Positions 24,212 through 36,009 of a stretch of DNA of 64,000 nucleotides are shown one piece after another; position 1 is the stretch's first letter; every line of letters starts with the position of its first letter. Made by a program: the position numbers and the translations under genes. The stretch lies in NCBI GenBank assembly GCA_024642205.1, contig JAHEBQ010000026.1, positions 1 through 64,000 of the forward strand, read 5' to 3'. The stretch comes from Planctomycetaceae bacterium (GTDB lineage: Bacteria; Planctomycetota; Planctomycetia; Pirellulales; Pirellulaceae). The notes beneath the pieces were generated by a model, which ran no database searches, was not told where the DNA came from, and was given only the letters and a program-made list of their open reading frames with translations.

Positions 24212-24589
24212 GCCAATTGGAATCGGTGAAGGTTTCTGTTGCCATGTCGTTCAAAACACTCTCCCGACGAACCAGGAAGATAAACGGCCCGACCAGTAAG
24301 CGAGTCAATTGAACCGGCTGACGAACTTATCAACCAAAACGAATTTCCTGCGAATCAGTGAATCGATCCATTTGCCTGGTTGATTTTTCCAATCTACTTC
24401 ACAAACACGTGAATTCTCCGGTGGTCCTGGGAGTCCGAAACACGAATTCCGCCCGTTTGCGCGTATCGCCGACAAGAAACTGAGGGCAAACAGGCAAATT
24501 GAATCGCCAATTGGCATTTCACCACGTCGACGATAGTGTTATTTTTTCGGATCGGAAAGGATCCACCGAAAATACCATGGAATGGTGCC

Positions 24590-25336
24590 GTGTCTCGAAC
24601 CTTGTGCGTTGCAAATCAGAAAGGAGGCGTCGGAAAAACGACGACTTCGATCAACCTGGCAACGGGTTTGGCTATGGCAGGGCAAAAAACGTTGCTTGTC
24701 GACATGGATCCACAATGCAACGCGACTTCGGGGATCGGTTGTCAACCAGTCGACCGTCACCCCATGGTTGTTGACCAGGCGATTCGACACAGTGTTTTGC
24801 CCACTAGCGTGAGCGGGTTGAGCCTGCTTCCCGGATCAAAGTCGTTTCGCGACGTCGACATGCTAGCAAATGGAGGATCGGACGAGAGCCGCGTCCTCGT
24901 GGAACATTTAGCTAGCGGAACATCGCAATACGACTACGTGCTGATTGATTGCCCACCTTCCTTGGGGCATCTCACACAGACTGCTTTGGCGGCGTCGAAT
25001 GAAGTCTTCATGCCGATCCAATGCGAATATTTCGCGATGGAAGGATTGGCTCAAATGATCGAGTTGATCCGGAAAGTCATGCTGGAACGACCTGGACAAC
25101 TTACGTTCGGAGGCATTCTGCTGACAATGTACGACGAATCACTTGAGTTGACGGCAGAAGTCGACGATGAGGTTCGCGAATTTTTTGGAGAGGTTGTTTT
25201 TGATACCGTCGTTCCTCGGGATGTCAATGTAACCGAAGCGCCAAGTCACGGAATGAGCGTCATCGAATACGCGCCGCGATCGCGTGGAACACGAGCCTAT
25301 ATAGAACTGTGCATGGAGGTATTGGAACGTGACTAG
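24590..25336 (+). CDS. parA: Chromosome-partitioning ATPase ParA (Soj)
   Basis: 248 residues from GTG 24590, which gives the normal N-terminus MSRTLCVANQKGGVGKTTT; the ORF extends to a GTG at 24536 with sequence foreign to the family. Deviant Walker A is KGGVGKTT at residues 11-18, Walker A' is LLVDMDPQCNATSG, Walker B is VLIDCPPSL. No N-terminal helix-turn-helix is present, so it is the chromosomal type Ib-like Soj. ParA forms an ATP-dependent gradient on DNA that moves ParB-parS complexes. It overlaps parB by 8 bases and follows two parS sites. Confidence 0.97.
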   Translation: MSRTLCVANQKGGVGKTTTSINLATGLAMAGQKTLLVDMDPQCNATSGIGCQPVDRHPMVVDQAIRHSVLPTSVSGLSLLPGSKSFRDVDMLANGGSDESRVLVEHLASGTSQYDYVLIDCPPSLGHLTQTALAASNEVFMPIQCEYFAMEGLAQMIELIRKVMLERPGQLTFGGILLTMYDESLELTAEVDDEVREFFGEVVFDTVVPRDVNVTEAPSHGMSVIEYAPRSRGTRAYIELCMEVLERD

Positions 25337-26288
25337 GAAGAAACGATTGGGTCGAGGACTCGAGAACCTGTTAAACACAACCCGTGAGCCGGACGTCAAC
25401 GAGTCCGTCGCGATGGCGGATACCTACGTCCTTCCGGACGAAGCGCGTACGGCGCCAACGGAAGGAAACATACTGAACCTGAGCGTATACGAAATCGAAG
25501 ACAATCCGTTTCAACCTCGGCGTGTTTTTGGCGAGTCGGAAATTGCTTCGCTGGCCGAGAGTTTGAAAGAACATGACATTCTTCAACCCATCCTTGTGCG
25601 CATTGTTGACGGACGTTACCAACTGATCAGCGGCGAACGTCGTTTACGGGCTGCAATCAAAGCCAATTGGCAAACCATTCCAGCCCGTCTGCGGGAAGCC
25701 GATGATCGACTCGTTTCAGAATTGGCGATCGTGGAAAACCTGCAACGAAAGGACCTCAATCCGATAGAAAAAGCCCTTTCTTTCCGACGATACATTGACG
25801 AACATCATTGCACTCAGGAAGGGCTTGCCAGCCGACTGAAGATCGATCGTTCCACGATTGCCAACCTGATGCGTCTCCTGGAATTGCCTCGTCCGATTCA
25901 GGAAGCGCTTCAAAACGGACAGATCTCGGCGGGACACGCGCGAGCCCTGTTGCCGTTGGGTGACGAGCCCGTTCAGATTGAATTTTGCGACCAGATTGTT
26001 CGGGACGGCATGAGCGTGCGCGCGGTGGAACGGGCAGTGACCGACAAAATTACGGCGGAGGATTCCCTTGGAAGCAACGCGGCAATCAGAAAACAGCGAA
26101 CCCGCGACCGGCATATCGAGTCCCTTCAACAAGACCTGAAATCGGCATTGGGCACCAAGGTACAGATCAAACCCGGAAAAAATGAGCGTGGGCAAATCGT
26201 GATCCACTACGGCAATCACGCGGAGTTCGATCGACTTCGAGAGATTTTAACGGGGCAGGATCCAGCTGGAAAGTTTCGAGTCGCCTGA
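25329..26288 (+). CDS. parB: Chromosome-partitioning protein ParB
   Basis: 319 residues, GTG start inside the end of parA. The N-terminal KKRLGRGLENLL motif (ParA-stimulating peptide) is present. The CTP-binding ParB/Srx domain (about 50-140) includes NPFQPRRVF, GERRLRAA (102-109) and VENLQRKDLNPIEKA. A helix-turn-helix (EGLASRLKIDRSTIANLMRLLELP) recognises parS. The C-terminal dimerisation segment (TKVQIKPGKNERGQIVIHYGN...FDRLREIL) is intact. ParB is a CTP-dependent DNA clamp that loads at parS and recruits SMC. All catalytic and binding motifs look functional. Confidence 0.97.
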   Translation: MTRKKRLGRGLENLLNTTREPDVNESVAMADTYVLPDEARTAPTEGNILNLSVYEIEDNPFQPRRVFGESEIASLAESLKEHDILQPILVRIVDGRYQLISGERRLRAAIKANWQTIPARLREADDRLVSELAIVENLQRKDLNPIEKALSFRRYIDEHHCTQEGLASRLKIDRSTIANLMRLLELPRPIQEALQNGQISAGHARALLPLGDEPVQIEFCDQIVRDGMSVRAVERAVTDKITAEDSLGSNAAIRKQRTRDRHIESLQQDLKSALGTKVQIKPGKNERGQIVIHYGNHAEFDRLREILTGQDPAGKFRVA

Positions 26289-27711: not shown

Positions 27712-28992
27712 ATGCTCAAAACCCAAAACAAAATAAACCCAATCATCACCAAAGCGAAAACGATCAAACGCCTTAACGCGTTCTTCGTTACCGGTCTTTG
27801 CGTATTTGTTCTCAGTTGCCTTTTCTGGCCTTTGTCGGCCAGTGACTTTCGCAGCATTGCCGCGATCACTGTGGCGGCCAGCAAGAACGACCAGTCGAAA
27901 ACTCAACTTGAGCAGGCACTGGCTCAAATTATCAGGGAAGAGACTTCCGACGAACGATTGGAAGCGATGGTTTCACAGATCGAGGTCGCCGGGAAAATCC
28001 ACACCCGGCAAATCGAATCCCGTGACCACAATTCAATGAGAAAAGCCCTTCAGATTTCGGTAAGCGAACGCGACTACGGTTATGACTTTCGATTGGGTTT
28101 CGACGGGCTCGGAGGCGCGGATGAACAGGAACTCGTCAAAATGCTGGCGCAACGAATCGCGAGTCGCTTAGCCCCAGAAACAGGTGGCCGACGTCCCAGT
28201 AAATCTACTTTAAACAAATCGATTGAATCATTGGCTCAGCTTCAAACGCAGCAGGCGCGAAGTTTTGACCTGGCAAAATGGATTGTTGATCAGATCGAAG
28301 ATGACCTTAAGTCGGTAAAAATATCCTTGGCGCGCATGGGAGATGGAGGGGCCGGATTGGCGAATGATCCAGACGCAGCCAATGCCAACGGTTCGCAGTT
28401 TCAATTCGCATCCAGCAGAAAAGTCATTGGAGACACGGGTGAATTGCAAGCCACGATCGAGTCGATTGACCTGAATTCGCTACGTGAAGTACTGGCCGAA
28501 ATGCAACAGCGGTTGGATGTCCAGAAAAACCTGATCAACGCACAGCCGCCAGTTTCCTCCAACACACTCAGCGCCGGTCAGTTCCTCGTGGGTCAACCGA
28601 ATCGAATCTTGACGCGGCCACTTGACGCGTCCCCTGGGAGTCTTGGCTTTTTCCTTGTTGGACTGACGTCTGTCATCGTCGGTTCGATTGTTGCATTAAA
28701 TTTTCAGCCGTTTGAATGCCGCGGTTTTGAGAACGCCAGGTCCGTTGGGCGCGTGCTGGGCATACCAGTCGTCGCACAGATTCTCGCTGAAACAACCTCA
28801 GAAAACTCCGAACCAAAAAAAAGACACGTCCCATGGGCCAACCGTGTATCGGCAATCGCCAGTTTATTGTTGTTTGGAATCTTTGTGGTAGTCGCTGGAT
28901 TCGTTTTAATCAATCCGGAGGTCCGGGAAGCCTTTTATGAAAACCCATTGTTTGGATGCGTTCAAATCATCCGAATGTTTGCAGGATATTAG
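27712..28992 (+). CDS. Wzz/GNVR-like polysaccharide chain-length membrane protein
   Basis: 426 residues from ATG 27712. An N-terminal membrane helix (FFVTGLCVFVLSCLFWPL) is followed by a periplasmic domain of about 300 residues. It has a small alpha/beta part (SISVSERDYGYDFRLGF-type, about 60-150) and helical segments (LREVLAEMQQRLDVQKNLI), then a second helix (LGFFLVGLTSVIVGSIVAL) and a third near the C-terminus (ASLLLFGIFVVVAGFVLI). The stretch between helices 2 and 3, FENARSVGRVLGIPVVAQIL, matches the post-TM segment of Wzz-type co-polymerases. Such proteins set polysaccharide length with a BY-kinase partner. First gene of the cluster with the ATPase, CpsD-like and galE genes. Confidence 0.7.
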   Translation: MLKTQNKINPIITKAKTIKRLNAFFVTGLCVFVLSCLFWPLSASDFRSIAAITVAASKNDQSKTQLEQALAQIIREETSDERLEAMVSQIEVAGKIHTRQIESRDHNSMRKALQISVSERDYGYDFRLGFDGLGGADEQELVKMLAQRIASRLAPETGGRRPSKSTLNKSIESLAQLQTQQARSFDLAKWIVDQIEDDLKSVKISLARMGDGGAGLANDPDAANANGSQFQFASSRKVIGDTGELQATIESIDLNSLREVLAEMQQRLDVQKNLINAQPPVSSNTLSAGQFLVGQPNRILTRPLDASPGSLGFFLVGLTSVIVGSIVALNFQPFECRGFENARSVGRVLGIPVVAQILAETTSENSEPKKRHVPWANRVSAIASLLLFGIFVVVAGFVLINPEVREAFYENPLFGCVQIIRMFAGY

Positions 28993-29083: not shown

Positions 29084-31807
29084 ATGTACGAACAAATATA
29101 CCACTTCCACTCGCGACCCTTCACGGCGACTCCGTATGTCAAGCATTATTTCGCCGGCCAGGCAATTCAACAATCACTTACCCAGGCAAGCATGTGCGTC
29201 GATCGGGGGACCGGTCCCGTGGTCGTCGTGGGTGCGACAGGCACTGGAAAATCATTGTTGCTTGCGATGCTGGAAGGACAGTTCCAGTCCCGATTCAATG
29301 TCGTCAACCTGGGTTGTGTCAGGTTGGACCAACGGCGGGAGCTTCTGCAAAGCCTGTTGCACGAGCTGCAATTACCGTTTAAAGATCTTTCCGAAACTGA
29401 GCTTCGGTTTTCACTGATCGACTATCTTAAGCCGAGCGAAAAATGCCCCAACGGAATTCTCTTGCTCGTTGACGAAGCCCAGGCACTGTCCGTTGACATG
29501 CTCGACGAGATTAGCCTGATCACGAACTTTGTCCGCGAAGGCCAACCCCGAGTTCGACTGGTGATGGCTGGAAGCCAGCGTCTGGAAGAGAATTTGAATC
29601 ACGCAACGTTGGAATCCTTCAATCAGCGAATCGCGGCACGATGTTACCTGGGTAATTTGAACCGAGATGAAACGGCAAACTACGTAACCGAACATATCGA
29701 CCGCGCCGGCGGCACCGGTTCCCGGTTGTTCCACGCCGACAGCCTGAGAGCGATTCACGACGTGTCGGATGGTTGTCCTCGCCTGATCAATCAAGTCTGT
29801 GATCAAGCCCTGATTCTTGCGGCGACTCGCGCCGAAAAGGAGATAACAGACGCTTGCATCCACGAAGCCTGGGCGGATGTTCAGAGTTTCCCCGGCTCAT
29901 TCAACCCTTCAACCTCCACTCCTGTCGTTGCTTCCGGTTTGAAAAACGACGAGAGTTGGACCGTGATCGAATTTGGTCAACTCGACGACGAGCACACCCA
30001 ATCTTCACCAGGGGCAGCTTGTGAGGAAGCAAACGCCAATGAAGCTCCGGTTCAGGAGCCGACCAGCAACACGCATGATTTCCAGGAATGCGTGCAAGGC
30101 GATCCAGACTGCGAAGCACAACAGGACGAAGCCCTGGCGCGTGAACCGCATTTCGCCGCAACCACTGGAGAAGTTGGACAAAGCGAATTCGACGGTCCAT
30201 CGATTGATTCAGAATCGCTCGACGAGCCACCCTTGAATATCGATGGATCCGCGGAAAACCAGTCGTGGCCAGAAACCGAATCGACTCGGGATCCTTTAAC
30301 TGTTGCCGATGCTACGGAGATGGCAGAACAACTGGCTGGCGTTTTCGGAACCGGGCTGGAAGACGAAAACGAGTTCAACCCAGAAAATGCCCAGATTTCG
30401 GACCTGGAACTGGAACAAGCACAAATTTTTGAGCAGGTAGAATTGGAACAGAACAATATCTTCGCAGACGATCAGCCTGACGAAGATTTCGTCGCTCTGG
30501 CCGATTTGGACACAGGAATTGACATCCAGGACCCATTGGACCGTCACGCCGATTATCAAATTGGAAACGAAGCGATTGACGACCAATCCCACGTCGAGTC
30601 CGAATCATTCGACTATGACAATGTTGAAGATCACGATCCGGCCTGGGATCGTCTGAATTCAGACTCGCTGGAACCTGCTTCCTTCGGAGCCGACACGGAC
30701 CAACCGGACCAGGGTGAAACGAAAGACGTTCGGGCGGTGGAACAGTCGACCAGGCAGCCAATCGAAACCATCGATCCATTCAACGAATCGTTCGAAGAAG
30801 AAGAAAACCTTTACGATCGGTATGCTCCTTTCGTTGCGCACCAGAACCAAAGTTCGCTTACGCTGACCTCGGAAGATCTCGCATTGTTAACTCCCGAAGA
30901 TGAATGCCTAACAACTGATTCGTCCGCGACCTCCGAAACCGACGCCATTTCCACGATCATCATCAACCAATTGGAACAACATGCCATCACCGAAGTCGAT
31001 CCGGCCATCGATGTCGATCCAGGTAACGTTGACGACAGTGAAGATTTACACACGCGCAATCTGGCTCACCCAGCTGCCGACGACGAAGACAGCGCCAATC
31101 CGGACGGCGACACCAACAGTTCCGAAATGCCGCATTGGGAGAACGACTCACTCGAGGAATTCGAAGCAATGGCAGTCGCGGGGGCCGATGATCGCTCCGA
31201 AACCGACGATGAAACGGAATGCACCGATTTTGGCCGAAAGCAAGAGGACCAGGAGGACGATGTCGATCCGGACATTCGGATGCAGGCGGAAGAAATTTTG
31301 AGACGCCTTGGCAAGTCCAAACACGTTTCATGTGAAACAACATCCGATGAGAACGCCAGCGATGACTCCCCTGCTAATGTTCCCCTGGACTCGAGCGACG
31401 CAGCGACCGGGAAACAGGATCTGGCAGGAGAGTCTCCAGTCAGCTCCCCGCAAGTCGAACTGGTTGACTTCGAATATGCCCAACAAACCGCTGCACTCGA
31501 TGAATCACAGCAGATTCTCAACGAGATACTCGAGCAAAGACACGCGTTGGCAAAGCAGCGCGAAATGCTGGAGGAGGGGCGGGCTCAATTGCCAAATGAA
31601 GCGAATTCAGGCGCCGACCCGCACACCGGAGACGACCAGGAGATGATCGTAGTCAGTCGCATGGAAGAGCGATCAGAACCAACGGGCTTCAAAGTCGAAG
31701 CGCCGGTTCCGTTCCCGTCGACGCCGGTCTCAACGGGCCGAGCCGAGCGAATGGACTATCAAAAGCTGTTCGACCAACTTCGCGAGATTTCCAATTCGAA
31801 CGAATAG
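29084..31807 (+). CDS. ExeA/GspA-type AAA+ ATPase with long acidic tail
   Basis: 907 residues from ATG 29084 (AGGATG upstream). The first 280 residues are a complete AAA+ module: MYEQIYHFHSRPFTATP, Walker A GATGTGKS, Walker B ILLLVDEAQAL, sensor 1 RLVMAGSQRLEE, and FNQRIAARCYLGNLN with the arginine-finger region. This is the ExeA-like ATPase found in type II secretion and in exosortase-linked exopolysaccharide loci. From about 290 to 880 the protein is dominated by Asp, Glu, Gln and Ser with no predicted membrane helix. It ends in a short coiled coil (QQILNEILEQRHALAKQREMLEEGRAQL) and a small C-terminal motif (YQKLFDQLREI). The tail is probably disordered. It contains a near-parS sequence. 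Confidence 0.85.
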   Translation: MYEQIYHFHSRPFTATPYVKHYFAGQAIQQSLTQASMCVDRGTGPVVVVGATGTGKSLLLAMLEGQFQSRFNVVNLGCVRLDQRRELLQSLLHELQLPFKDLSETELRFSLIDYLKPSEKCPNGILLLVDEAQALSVDMLDEISLITNFVREGQPRVRLVMAGSQRLEENLNHATLESFNQRIAARCYLGNLNRDETANYVTEHIDRAGGTGSRLFHADSLRAIHDVSDGCPRLINQVCDQALILAATRAEKEITDACIHEAWADVQSFPGSFNPSTSTPVVASGLKNDESWTVIEFGQLDDEHTQSSPGAACEEANANEAPVQEPTSNTHDFQECVQGDPDCEAQQDEALAREPHFAATTGEVGQSEFDGPSIDSESLDEPPLNIDGSAENQSWPETESTRDPLTVADATEMAEQLAGVFGTGLEDENEFNPENAQISDLELEQAQIFEQVELEQNNIFADDQPDEDFVALADLDTGIDIQDPLDRHADYQIGNEAIDDQSHVESESFDYDNVEDHDPAWDRLNSDSLEPASFGADTDQPDQGETKDVRAVEQSTRQPIETIDPFNESFEEEENLYDRYAPFVAHQNQSSLTLTSEDLALLTPEDECLTTDSSATSETDAISTIIINQLEQHAITEVDPAIDVDPGNVDDSEDLHTRNLAHPAADDEDSANPDGDTNSSEMPHWENDSLEEFEAMAVAGADDRSETDDETECTDFGRKQEDQEDDVDPDIRMQAEEILRRLGKSKHVSCETTSDENASDDSPANVPLDSSDAATGKQDLAGESPVSSPQVELVDFEYAQQTAALDESQQILNEILEQRHALAKQREMLEEGRAQLPNEANSGADPHTGDDQEMIVVSRMEERSEPTGFKVEAPVPFPSTPVSTGRAERMDYQKLFDQLREISNSNE
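31324..31339. promoter_or_regulatory. Possible degenerate parS inside the ATPase gene
   Basis: CGTTTCATGTGAAACA matches the parS consensus at 14 of 16 positions; the central CACGTG is CATGTG. It sits 5 to 7 kb from parAB, inside the acidic-tail coding region. It may be a weaker ParB site or chance. Confidence 0.45.
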
Positions 31808-31855: not shown

Positions 31856-32974
31856 ATGACCTCAAAATCTCCGACCCCATCGACGGACCATGCCGTCTCC
31901 AGCCAGCTTGGCCGAAAGTGGCTTGAGTCGTCTGACAACCGTGTAGTGACCGATTCACCTGCTGACCAACAACCGGCGAGGAACTTTGTGTCGAAGGAAA
32001 TCCAACCCGGCGTTCTCGGCATGGATCAACTTTCTCGAGACGAATCCGGAGTGAAAAATCCGGCGCGACCCTCCGAACTCGCTCCCTTCTCCATCGCCAT
32101 CCCGGACGTTTCGGCAAACACCGGTAGCCCCGTCTCGATGTTGGACTATGCAGTGTTTAATAACCCGGAGGAGATGGCCCATGCGCTTGCCATCGCAAGC
32201 GAAGATCGACTGAACGCCGTTGGAGGAACGGGTTCATCGACACTCAACAGTAAGTCACGGAAAGGCGGAACAGGACGCCCGAACAGTACTCCATTGCGAA
32301 ACGACATTTCGGAGCCGCCAACCGAATGGACGGACATGCCGTCAACCAGAGAGACTCAACGAAACGACTTAGACAAACCTTCCGATCAAGCCACCAAAAA
32401 CCTGGCAATTGAAAAGTTGACCAACGCGATTGTCGAAAAGTTTCCCCTCGGTGACCCGACGGTTCTGCTGTTCGTAGGATCCGAGTCCAACAGGCATATC
32501 GACGAAACGTGCGCTCGGGTTGCATCTGAATTGGCGGATCGAAAAATCGGCCGAATTCTCCTGCTCGATTCCGATGCCGGAAGTCACGAGCTTTCCAACG
32601 CCAGCGGAGTCTCGGGTCAACCGGGTATTACCGATGTGGTTAACGACTCCGTCCCCTGGGAATCGACGATTTACGGCCGTTCTGCGACGGGGCTGGACTT
32701 CCTGGCGTCGGGAAAGGGCGTTTTCCACCATCCCGACTCCAGCAACCGACTTCGTCGCGCGGTGGCCGAAATGAAAAAAGAATACCAGTTCATCTGTATC
32801 GCGGCGGGAGATGCACAAGACCCTTCGGCCCGAATCTGGAATGACATCTGTGACGGAAGCTACCTGCTGGTAAGCATGAAAAACAGCAACCAGACCATTG
32901 CAAAATCGGCCGTGGCGGAAATGCAGTCCAGCGGCGCCCGGCTATTGGGATGTGTCGTAACAGACGTCGATTAA
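31856..32974 (+). CDS. CpsD/BY-kinase-like protein with degenerate P-loop
   Basis: 372 residues from ATG 31856 (TTG 12 bases earlier possible). The first 190 residues are polar and probably unstructured. The C-terminal 180 residues follow the tyrosine-autokinase/MinD fold: TVLLFVGSESNRHIDETCARVASELA, GRILLLDSDAGSHEL (Walker A'), GQPGITDVVNDSVPWE, GLDFLASGKGVF and YQFICIAAGDAQD. The Walker A GEGKST expected after VTS is SNRHIDE, so ATP binding is probably lost. No C-terminal Tyr cluster is present. In loci of this type the partner is the Wzz-like protein. I infer a scaffold or regulatory role. Confidence 0.7.
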   Translation: MTSKSPTPSTDHAVSSQLGRKWLESSDNRVVTDSPADQQPARNFVSKEIQPGVLGMDQLSRDESGVKNPARPSELAPFSIAIPDVSANTGSPVSMLDYAVFNNPEEMAHALAIASEDRLNAVGGTGSSTLNSKSRKGGTGRPNSTPLRNDISEPPTEWTDMPSTRETQRNDLDKPSDQATKNLAIEKLTNAIVEKFPLGDPTVLLFVGSESNRHIDETCARVASELADRKIGRILLLDSDAGSHELSNASGVSGQPGITDVVNDSVPWESTIYGRSATGLDFLASGKGVFHHPDSSNRLRRAVAEMKKEYQFICIAAGDAQDPSARIWNDICDGSYLLVSMKNSNQTIAKSAVAEMQSSGARLLGCVVTDVD

Positions 32975-33068: not shown

Positions 33069-34103
33069 ATGCACGTCCTCGTCACTGGTGGAGCAGGGTA
33101 TATTGGCAGCCATACATGCCTTGAACTGCTAAACGCCGGGCACCAAGTCACAGTGGTTGACAATCTCAGCAACTCTTCGGAGGAATCACTGCAACGAGTC
33201 AGTACATTGACAGGCAAGGAAATTGCGTTCTTTCGAATCGACCTGCTGGACCAACTCGGTTTGGATGCGGTATTCCGGGACAACCAGTTCGATGCGGTGA
33301 TTCATTTCGCCGCACTGAAAGCCGTCGGCGAAAGCGTTGCCAAACCGCTGGCCTACTACCAGAACAACATCACGGGAACGGTGAATCTCTGTGACGCGAC
33401 GCAGCGACATCACGTCAGTCATTTCGTGTTCAGTTCGAGTGCCACCGTATATGGCATTCCCAGATCGTTGCCTTTGACCGAAACATCGGCAACTCCCATG
33501 GAAGAAGTGACCAATCCCTATGGCCGCTCAAAATTGATGCTGGAGTATATCCTGAAAGACTGGCAGGCCTCACAACCGCAGACCAATGTGGCGCTACTTA
33601 GGTATTTCAATCCGGTCGGTGCACATGAATCCGGGCAAATTGGCGAAGACCCCAACGGCATTCCTAACAACTTGTTACCTTATATCTCCCAGGTGGCAGT
33701 GGGAAAACTCGAAAGAGTCGGTGTATTTGGATGCGACTACGAAACGCCCGACGGGACCGGTGTTCGCGATTATATTCATGTCGTCGACCTGGCGCGTGGA
33801 CATGTTCTGGCCCTCGACAAACTGGCCGAAAACCCTGGTGTGGTAACGTACAACCTTGGAACCGGAAACGGTTACAGTGTGTTGGAGATCGTGGCTGCCT
33901 TTGAGCGCGCCTGCGGAAAAAAAATCCCCTTCACGTTCCTTGATCGACGGCCAGGCGACATCGCGGTGTGTTACGCAGACCCATCGTTGGCAAAAACTGA
34001 ACTGGGCTGGGTGGCGGAACGGGGAATCGACGAGATGTGTACCGATGGCTGGCGATGGCAATCGCAAAACCCCAGCGGTTACACCACGATCGCCGGTTCA
34101 TGA
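33069..34103 (+). CDS. galE: UDP-glucose 4-epimerase
   Basis: 344 residues, the usual GalE length. NAD motif GGAGYIGSHT at 7-16, DNLSNSSEESLQR, then VIHFAALKAVGESVAKPLAYYQNN, catalytic SSSATVYG and YGRSK (Tyr/Lys), NVALLRYFNPVGAH, GVRDYIHVVDLARGHVLAL and YNLGTGNGYSVLEIV. It interconverts UDP-glucose and UDP-galactose, supplying galactose units for surface polysaccharide. The start has CTGGAG upstream. It is the last gene of the rightward cluster, 94 bases after the CpsD-like gene, and converges with the hydrolase gene. Confidence 0.97.
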   Translation: MHVLVTGGAGYIGSHTCLELLNAGHQVTVVDNLSNSSEESLQRVSTLTGKEIAFFRIDLLDQLGLDAVFRDNQFDAVIHFAALKAVGESVAKPLAYYQNNITGTVNLCDATQRHHVSHFVFSSSATVYGIPRSLPLTETSATPMEEVTNPYGRSKLMLEYILKDWQASQPQTNVALLRYFNPVGAHESGQIGEDPNGIPNNLLPYISQVAVGKLERVGVFGCDYETPDGTGVRDYIHVVDLARGHVLALDKLAENPGVVTYNLGTGNGYSVLEIVAAFERACGKKIPFTFLDRRPGDIAVCYADPSLAKTELGWVAERGIDEMCTDGWRWQSQNPSGYTTIAGS

Positions 34104-35277: not shown

Positions 35278-36009
35278 GTGGAATCTAATCCTACCTTGCT
35301 CGTCGTTGTTGCAACCTACAACGAGATAGACAATTTGCCCCGTCTGGTTCACCAGATCACGGAATTGCTCCCGGATGCTGACATCCTCGTGATCGACGAC
35401 GCGTCCCCGGATGGAACCGGGAATTGGTGTGAACAGGCGTCGTCCAAATATCCTCGAATGTCGGTATTGCACCGTGAAGAGAAACTGGGGCTGGGTTCAG
35501 CGGCAATCGTTGGATTTCACTACGCAAAATCCAAGAGTTACGAACTCGTAGCGACGATGGATGCGGATTTGAGCCACGACCCCAAGAGCCTTGCCGAGAT
35601 GATTCTGATTGCCAAGGACCCGAACCGTGCTGGCGTCGGCGTCATCCTCGGCAGTCGCTATATCCCGGGGGGAGGAACCGAAGGCTGGCCCTGGAGTCGG
35701 CGAATCGCCTCCAAAGCGGTTAATCGTTTTGCGCGGTTGATGTTGCGCCTCAAGACACATGACAATAGCGGAGCATTTCGGGTCTACCGTGCATCGGCGC
35801 TCGAGCAACTGGATTTGAAAAAACTGAAGAGCTCCGATTTCGCGTACCTCGAGGAGATCCTCTGGCGACTGGCAACGAAGGGCGTCGTGATGCTGGAATA
35901 TCCGATCCTGTTTCGAAACCGCGAGCTGGGCCGGTCCAAGACCAGTGCCCTGCTGGGGCTGAAAGTATTCTGGCAGATCACGATGATGGGCGTAGGAGCC
36001 TGGAAATAA
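35278..36009 (+). CDS. Dolichyl/polyprenyl-phosphate mannose synthase-like GT2 glycosyltransferase
   Basis: 243 residues, a stand-alone GT2 domain. Motifs: VVVATYNEIDNLPRLV, ILVIDDASPDGTG, GLGSAAIVGFHYA, ATMDADLSHDP (DxD-type metal site), LGSRYIPGGGTEGWPWSRRIASKAVNRFARLML and the acceptor-helix ending EEILWRL. These fit the DPM1-type enzymes that transfer a sugar from GDP-mannose to a polyprenyl phosphate on the inner face of the membrane. No membrane domain is attached. Start is GTG 35278. A hairpin follows the stop codon. Confidence 0.93.
   Translation: MESNPTLLVVVATYNEIDNLPRLVHQITELLPDADILVIDDASPDGTGNWCEQASSKYPRMSVLHREEKLGLGSAAIVGFHYAKSKSYELVATMDADLSHDPKSLAEMILIAKDPNRAGVGVILGSRYIPGGGTEGWPWSRRIASKAVNRFARLMLRLKTHDNSGAFRVYRASALEQLDLKKLKSSDFAYLEEILWRLATKGVVMLEYPILFRNRELGRSKTSALLGLKVFWQITMMGVGAWK

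Follow-up and report, generated by a model that had tools for sequence, protein, structure and literature searches.

A BY pseudokinase encoded with a predicted co-polymerase and an AAA+ ATPase in a putatively remodelled XrtA-type module of Planctomycetaceae

The 64,000-nucleotide stretch of DNA from a marine member of the Planctomycetaceae analysed here (the window) contains a gene for a protein, psK, that resembles bacterial tyrosine kinases (BY-kinases) and has no recognizable P-loop, which raises the question of what such a protein may do. The original prediction had described a CpsD/BY-kinase-like protein with a disordered N-terminal part and no C-terminal tyrosine cluster, possibly a pseudokinase scaffold whose function had passed to the neighbouring AAA+ ATPase. 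The open reading frame was confirmed and encodes 372 amino acids; the strings cited from its MinD-like core (LLLDSDAG, GQPGITDVV, and GLDFLASG) and the stretch SESNRHIDE are all present.

A Pfam search with psK gave no useful match. NCBIfam assigned it to TIGR03018 (XrtA-associated tyrosine autokinase, 4e-6) and TIGR01007 (6e-6), the TIGR03018 score of 26.2 bits being far below the curated cut-off of 230.65. All 38 aligned relatives of psK match TIGR03018, and a sequence search of the PDB identified the kinase domain of VpsO (2.5e-7). The structure was predicted with AlphaFold2 on the alignment of these 38 relatives and compared with the PDB by Foldseek, which returned VpsO as the best match (7e-12), then Wzc (5e-11), with Etk, CapB, and BceF among the further kinase-domain matches. 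The proposed CpsD/BY-kinase-like identity is borne out by TIGR03018 and by the similarity to VpsO and Wzc, and the core, as modelled, has the BY-kinase fold. An origin from TadZ/CpaE- or ParA-like proteins was ruled out by the TIGR03018 and TIGR01007 matches and the Foldseek results, which favour a BY-kinase.

Upstream of the core, residues 1 to ~175 are predicted to be disordered (pLDDT ~40-60), with two short helices at residues 17-25 and 104-114; the disorder had been foreseen correctly, its length of 190 residues was somewhat overestimated. A GxWL-type motif is found at the N-terminus in 19 of 24 genus members, and an ALKRLE-like N-terminal helix occurs in many other families, active kinases included. 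The N-terminal motif of psK and a motif in the tail of the ATPase may be docking elements.

At the aligned Walker A position psK reads FVGSESNRHIDETCARVA, compared to VTSSVPSEGKSVSSVNLA in an intact relative, and GK[ST] does not occur anywhere in the 372 residues, so that the reported P-loop without GKS/T is not compensated by an intact one elsewhere in the protein. Of the Walker A' motif (DxDxR) psK retains DSDAG, with both aspartates and without the arginine, while the Walker B segment ICIAAGDA has lost the catalytic aspartate seen in VVIDSPP of an intact relative. The EX2RX2R motif is absent in the alignment to intact relatives, and the last 30 residues, which include the terminal beta strand 363-369 of the AlphaFold2 model, hold no tyrosine, in line with the missing tyrosine cluster. 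As Walker B and EX2RX2R are gone as well, the loss is broader than originally stated. In same-genus orthologues Walker A, Walker B, EX2RX2R, and the tyrosine tail are likewise all missing; conservation within the genus is above the core average in IDETCARVA, the segment that comes after the lost P-loop. The assignment of psK as a BY pseudokinase is well supported.

In a sample of 60 relatives, including Mariniblastus sp. and uncultured Pirellulaceae of the phylum Planctomycetota, a psK orthologue was found in 24 of the 28 same-genus genomes (window included), and none of the 24 has GKS/T. Of the four genus genomes without psK, three (71-84% complete) show no ATPase either, and the contig of the fourth breaks off within the ATPase gene. 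For the psK core, dN/dS values of 0.03-0.13 were obtained from nine same-genus pairs with estimable dS, which indicates that the protein is maintained. A sequencing error or a pseudogene is ruled out by this low dN/dS and by a P-loop loss common to all 24 genus orthologues.

psK is the third gene of a conserved trio, WzzL, ATPase, and psK (Table 1), in the genus gene order parA-parB-maoC-WzzL-ATPase-psK-galE. The order of the trio is kept across the genus and also in other genera or families. Throughout the genus, the parA-parB pair (24536-26288) and a MaoC-like gene keep their synteny with the trio. Neither Wzx/Wzy nor a visible export lipoprotein was found among the neighbour genes examined at the window locus; an exosortase (PF09721, 6e-23) is encoded in the genome (G000), away from the trio locus. 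Some relatives retain the ATPase and sugar genes without psK, hence psK is dispensable in those lineages.

Table 1. Coordinates of the psK locus and of the sequence elements discussed (window numbering)
Feature	Position	Strand	Basis
WzzL, Wzz/TIGR03007-like polysaccharide co-polymerase (moderate confidence), no kinase domain, TM helices predicted: three	27712..28992	+	
WzzL cytoplasmic loop between TM2 and TM3, helix-strand FENARSVGRVLGIPVVAQI	28702..28833	+	
AAA+ ATPase, TIGR03015-like, ~620-aa acidic low-complexity tail	29084..31807	+	NCBIfam
LFxxLR motif conserved at the ATPase C-terminus, RMDYQKLFDQLREISNSNE	31748..31804	+	
psK, BY pseudokinase, 372 aa, stand-alone, CpsD/TIGR03018-like	31856..32974	+	ORF list, NCBIfam, AlphaFold2, Foldseek
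psK short conserved motif VSSQLGRKWL near the N-terminus (residues 14-23), within the disordered part; predicted helix 17-25	31895..31924	+	
psK core with the kinase fold (residues 177-372), mostly at pLDDT ~95	32384..32971	+	AlphaFold2, Foldseek
psK Walker A (P-loop) position, FVGSESNRHIDETCARVA, no GK[ST]	32471..32524	+	Alignment to intact relatives
psK remnant of Walker A', ILLLDSD with both Asp but without the Arg after them	32555..32575	+	Alignment
psK Walker B position QFICIAAGDA, catalytic Asp lost	32786..32815	+	Alignment
GalE-like NAD-dependent epimerase, next gene downstream of psK, syntenic in genus	33069..34103	+	
GT2 glycosyltransferase, in relatives often close to the trio	35278..36009	+	

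For the first protein of the trio, a single-sequence family search gave no significant match. Among its relatives 6 of 19 match TIGR03007 (best 3e-6), and Foldseek found its model to resemble WzzE and Wzc (9e-6) with a low superposition quality and a model pLDDT of 72. Based on these relatives and the moderate-confidence model, we assign WzzL with moderate confidence as a Wzz/TIGR03007-like co-polymerase. The loop following TM2 contains a conserved ...LGVPVVA... segment. In a model of EpsV and the Myxococcus xanthus BY pseudokinase EcpK, the EpsV segment that follows TM2 forms a helix and a strand resembling those in the kinase domain of Wzc, and it packs against the pseudokinase (PMC12004946). 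By analogy, the helix-strand of the WzzL loop appears similar to the part of a PCP-2 with which it docks on a BY-kinase.

For the ATPase, NCBIfam gave TIGR03015 (5e-42; score 144, below the curated cut-off of 324.5), and both Walker A (GATGTGKS) and Walker B (ILLLVDEAQ) are intact. Its tail of 620 residues consists of 26% D/E and 5% K/R. Long acidic tails of this kind occur throughout the order and in family f22, even without an adjacent kinase, and end in LFxxLR in 27 of the 37 long-tailed ATPases of a survey anchored on the ATPase, while the short ATPases beside active kinases lack the motif. As LFxxLR is retained in ATPases without psK, it is not simply a psK-docking motif, and the idea that it serves specifically to dock psK is weakened.

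Elsewhere in the phylum, in other classes, two loci (L162 and L164) contain an intact trio in the same order. At L162 an export lipoprotein (OPX, TIGR03027, 2e-31), a co-polymerase with three TM helices (TIGR03007, 2e-39), and an ATPase (TIGR03015, 4e-96) accompany a kinase (TIGR03018, 7e-51) that has GEGKS, IDSPP, EQYRAVR, and five C-terminal tyrosines; the trio of L164 is similar. The order TIGR03007-TIGR03015-TIGR03018 is also that of the window, where psK and the ATPase score below the cut-offs and WzzL is recognized through its relatives. The same-order trio with an intact kinase outside the class indicates that the window trio is a derived XrtA-type module. On these sequence comparisons it is probably a remodelled XrtA-type exopolysaccharide module in which the kinase has turned into a pseudokinase. 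It shares families and gene order with the XrtA/PEP-CTERM-associated trio of L162 and L164, but differs by its dead kinase, the scores below cut-off, the long acidic ATPase tail, and an export cluster whose remaining genes were not seen at the locus.

Among the ATPase-linked kinase homologues of the class, GEGKT is kept by two of family f17 (L083 and L085). In the kinases of family f23 the P-loop lysine is replaced, mostly giving GTTT or GTST, and the Walker B aspartate is usually kept, and in family f1, which includes the window, all catalytic motifs are erased. In a first survey, biased by a profile built from P-loop-less proteins, 31 of the 33 members of the class from other genera had no P-loop lysine. 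A second survey took the ATPase as its anchor and found 17 kinase-like proteins next to it. GK[ST] was seen in none of the 17, of which three (L192, L193, and L197) aligned only partly at the P-loop; most loci with a long-tailed ATPase in this survey had no recognizable kinase beside it. The P-loop lysine thus appears to be lost in nearly all ATPase-linked kinase homologues across the class, and several lineages have kept the ATPase but not the kinase. On the tree, whose branches are long, parsimony calls for two changes of the K/no-K label, but a single change is also compatible with it. Judged from their motifs, the relatives seem to show the stages from working kinase over dead kinase to no kinase.

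At four loci (L190, L194, L201, and L202), small proteins of 163-250 aa directly follow the ATPase, some with a psK-like N-terminal motif; they may be eroded kinase remnants, their profile match not being significant. Other BY-kinases of the class also deviate at the P-loop. Wzc-like full-length proteins (~710-745 aa) of other families have arginine in place of the lysine (GRTT; L056, L057, L062, L063, L064, and L070 of family f7, also L069 and L073) and keep Walker A' and mostly Walker B, while L074 and L078 have cysteine at this position. Stand-alone CpsD-like proteins of ~240-270 aa (L091, L094, L096, L097, and L099), unlinked to the ATPase, show GVST or GVTT for GKST.

The concept of a BY pseudokinase is already published. 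EcpK and HfsB are pseudokinases, each of which binds directly to a co-polymerase without a kinase domain (EpsV and HfsA, respectively) and thereby supports it (PMC12004946). Like EcpK, psK is a stand-alone BY-kinase fold without Walker A/B consensus and tyrosine tail, encoded with a PCP-2(-like) protein lacking a kinase domain, the identity of WzzL being of moderate confidence. Unlike EcpK, which ends in a Lys/Arg-rich helix, psK ends in a beta strand and has the long disordered N-terminus; WzzL has a third TM helix that EpsV lacks, and an AAA+ ATPase adjoins psK, whereas none is mentioned for EcpK/EpsV in PMC12004946. HfsB/HfsA of the Caulobacter holdfast, as described there, are also a pseudokinase and a kinase-less co-polymerase, but belong to another pathway and have no ATPase partner mentioned in that paper. 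With the active Wzc, VpsO, and CapB, psK shares the core fold but not Walker A, Walker B, EX2RX2R, and the tyrosine tail. The papers searched contained no description of the ATPase-linked trio or of the graded P-loop series.

The loss of the motifs for ATP use in a protein that is kept under strong selection within the trio points to a probably structural, scaffolding role. We consider psK most likely to be the kinase subunit of an XrtA-type co-polymerase module that has lost its catalytic motifs and serves as a scaffold for WzzL (probability roughly 0.6). The kinase-fold core would bind the helix and strand (...RVLGIPVVAQI) of the WzzL cytoplasmic loop, as EcpK binds EpsV, the disordered N-terminus with its conserved short motif would link further partners, and the adjacent AAA+ ATPase, not tyrosine phosphorylation, would power any cycle of assembly and disassembly. 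Sequence and structure prediction establish the fold, the motif loss, the purifying selection, the trio synteny, and the homology to the active trio, from which we infer the physical contacts, the scaffold role, and the ATPase as energy source.

Of the pseudokinase scaffold whose function passed to the ATPase, as originally predicted, the scaffold is the best reading, but the hand-over is not needed: the ATPase already adjoins the active kinase in relatives, hence it did not arrive as a replacement and no change of its role is required. In its full form this alternative, which we regard as rather unlikely, has the ATPase drive the co-polymerase cycle and leaves psK as an adaptor or decaying remnant that would mainly tether the ATPase via the disordered N-terminus. 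The intact Walker motifs of the ATPase agree with it, as do its survival beyond the kinase in several genera and its gain of a long acidic tail with the conserved LFxxLR, which the short ATPases beside active kinases lack. The candidate remnants that follow the ATPase in some families (195-250 aa) could be read in the same way, but are not significant by profile, and in the window genus the strong purifying selection on the psK core does not fit decay.

Binding of a nucleotide or another ligand through the altered pocket, with psK working as a ligand sensor, could explain why conservation in the genus is comparatively high in the DxD strand of Walker A' and in the helix IDETCARVA after the lost P-loop; the loss of the phosphate-binding Lys/Ser/Thr and of the Walker B aspartate in all genus members makes it improbable. 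Even less probable is a role moved away from polysaccharide, for example to envelope organization or chromosome positioning, to which the synteny of parAB and the MaoC-like gene with the trio throughout the genus and the lack of Wzx/Wzy beside it would point. The trio of other families is found apart from parAB or next to an epimerase and a GT2, so that the sugar genes are the more constant neighbours.

Returning to psK as a WzzL scaffold, a wider and only tentative extension is that the XrtA-type co-polymerase module of Planctomycetia has exchanged tyrosine phosphorylation for an AAA+ ATPase engine, the kinase fold being retained only as an adaptor that joins the co-polymerase to the ATPase, with lineages at the active, Lys-to-Thr P-loop, erased, remnant, and absent stages. 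With this locus the recently named group of BY pseudokinases with PCP-2 partners gains a deep-branching phylum, and the pseudokinase/PCP-2 pair a third conserved partner, the AAA+ ATPase. The stepwise loss of the P-loop in one class provides a natural series for the roles of BY-kinases beyond tyrosine phosphorylation, and bears on how a co-polymerase may cycle without phosphorylation.
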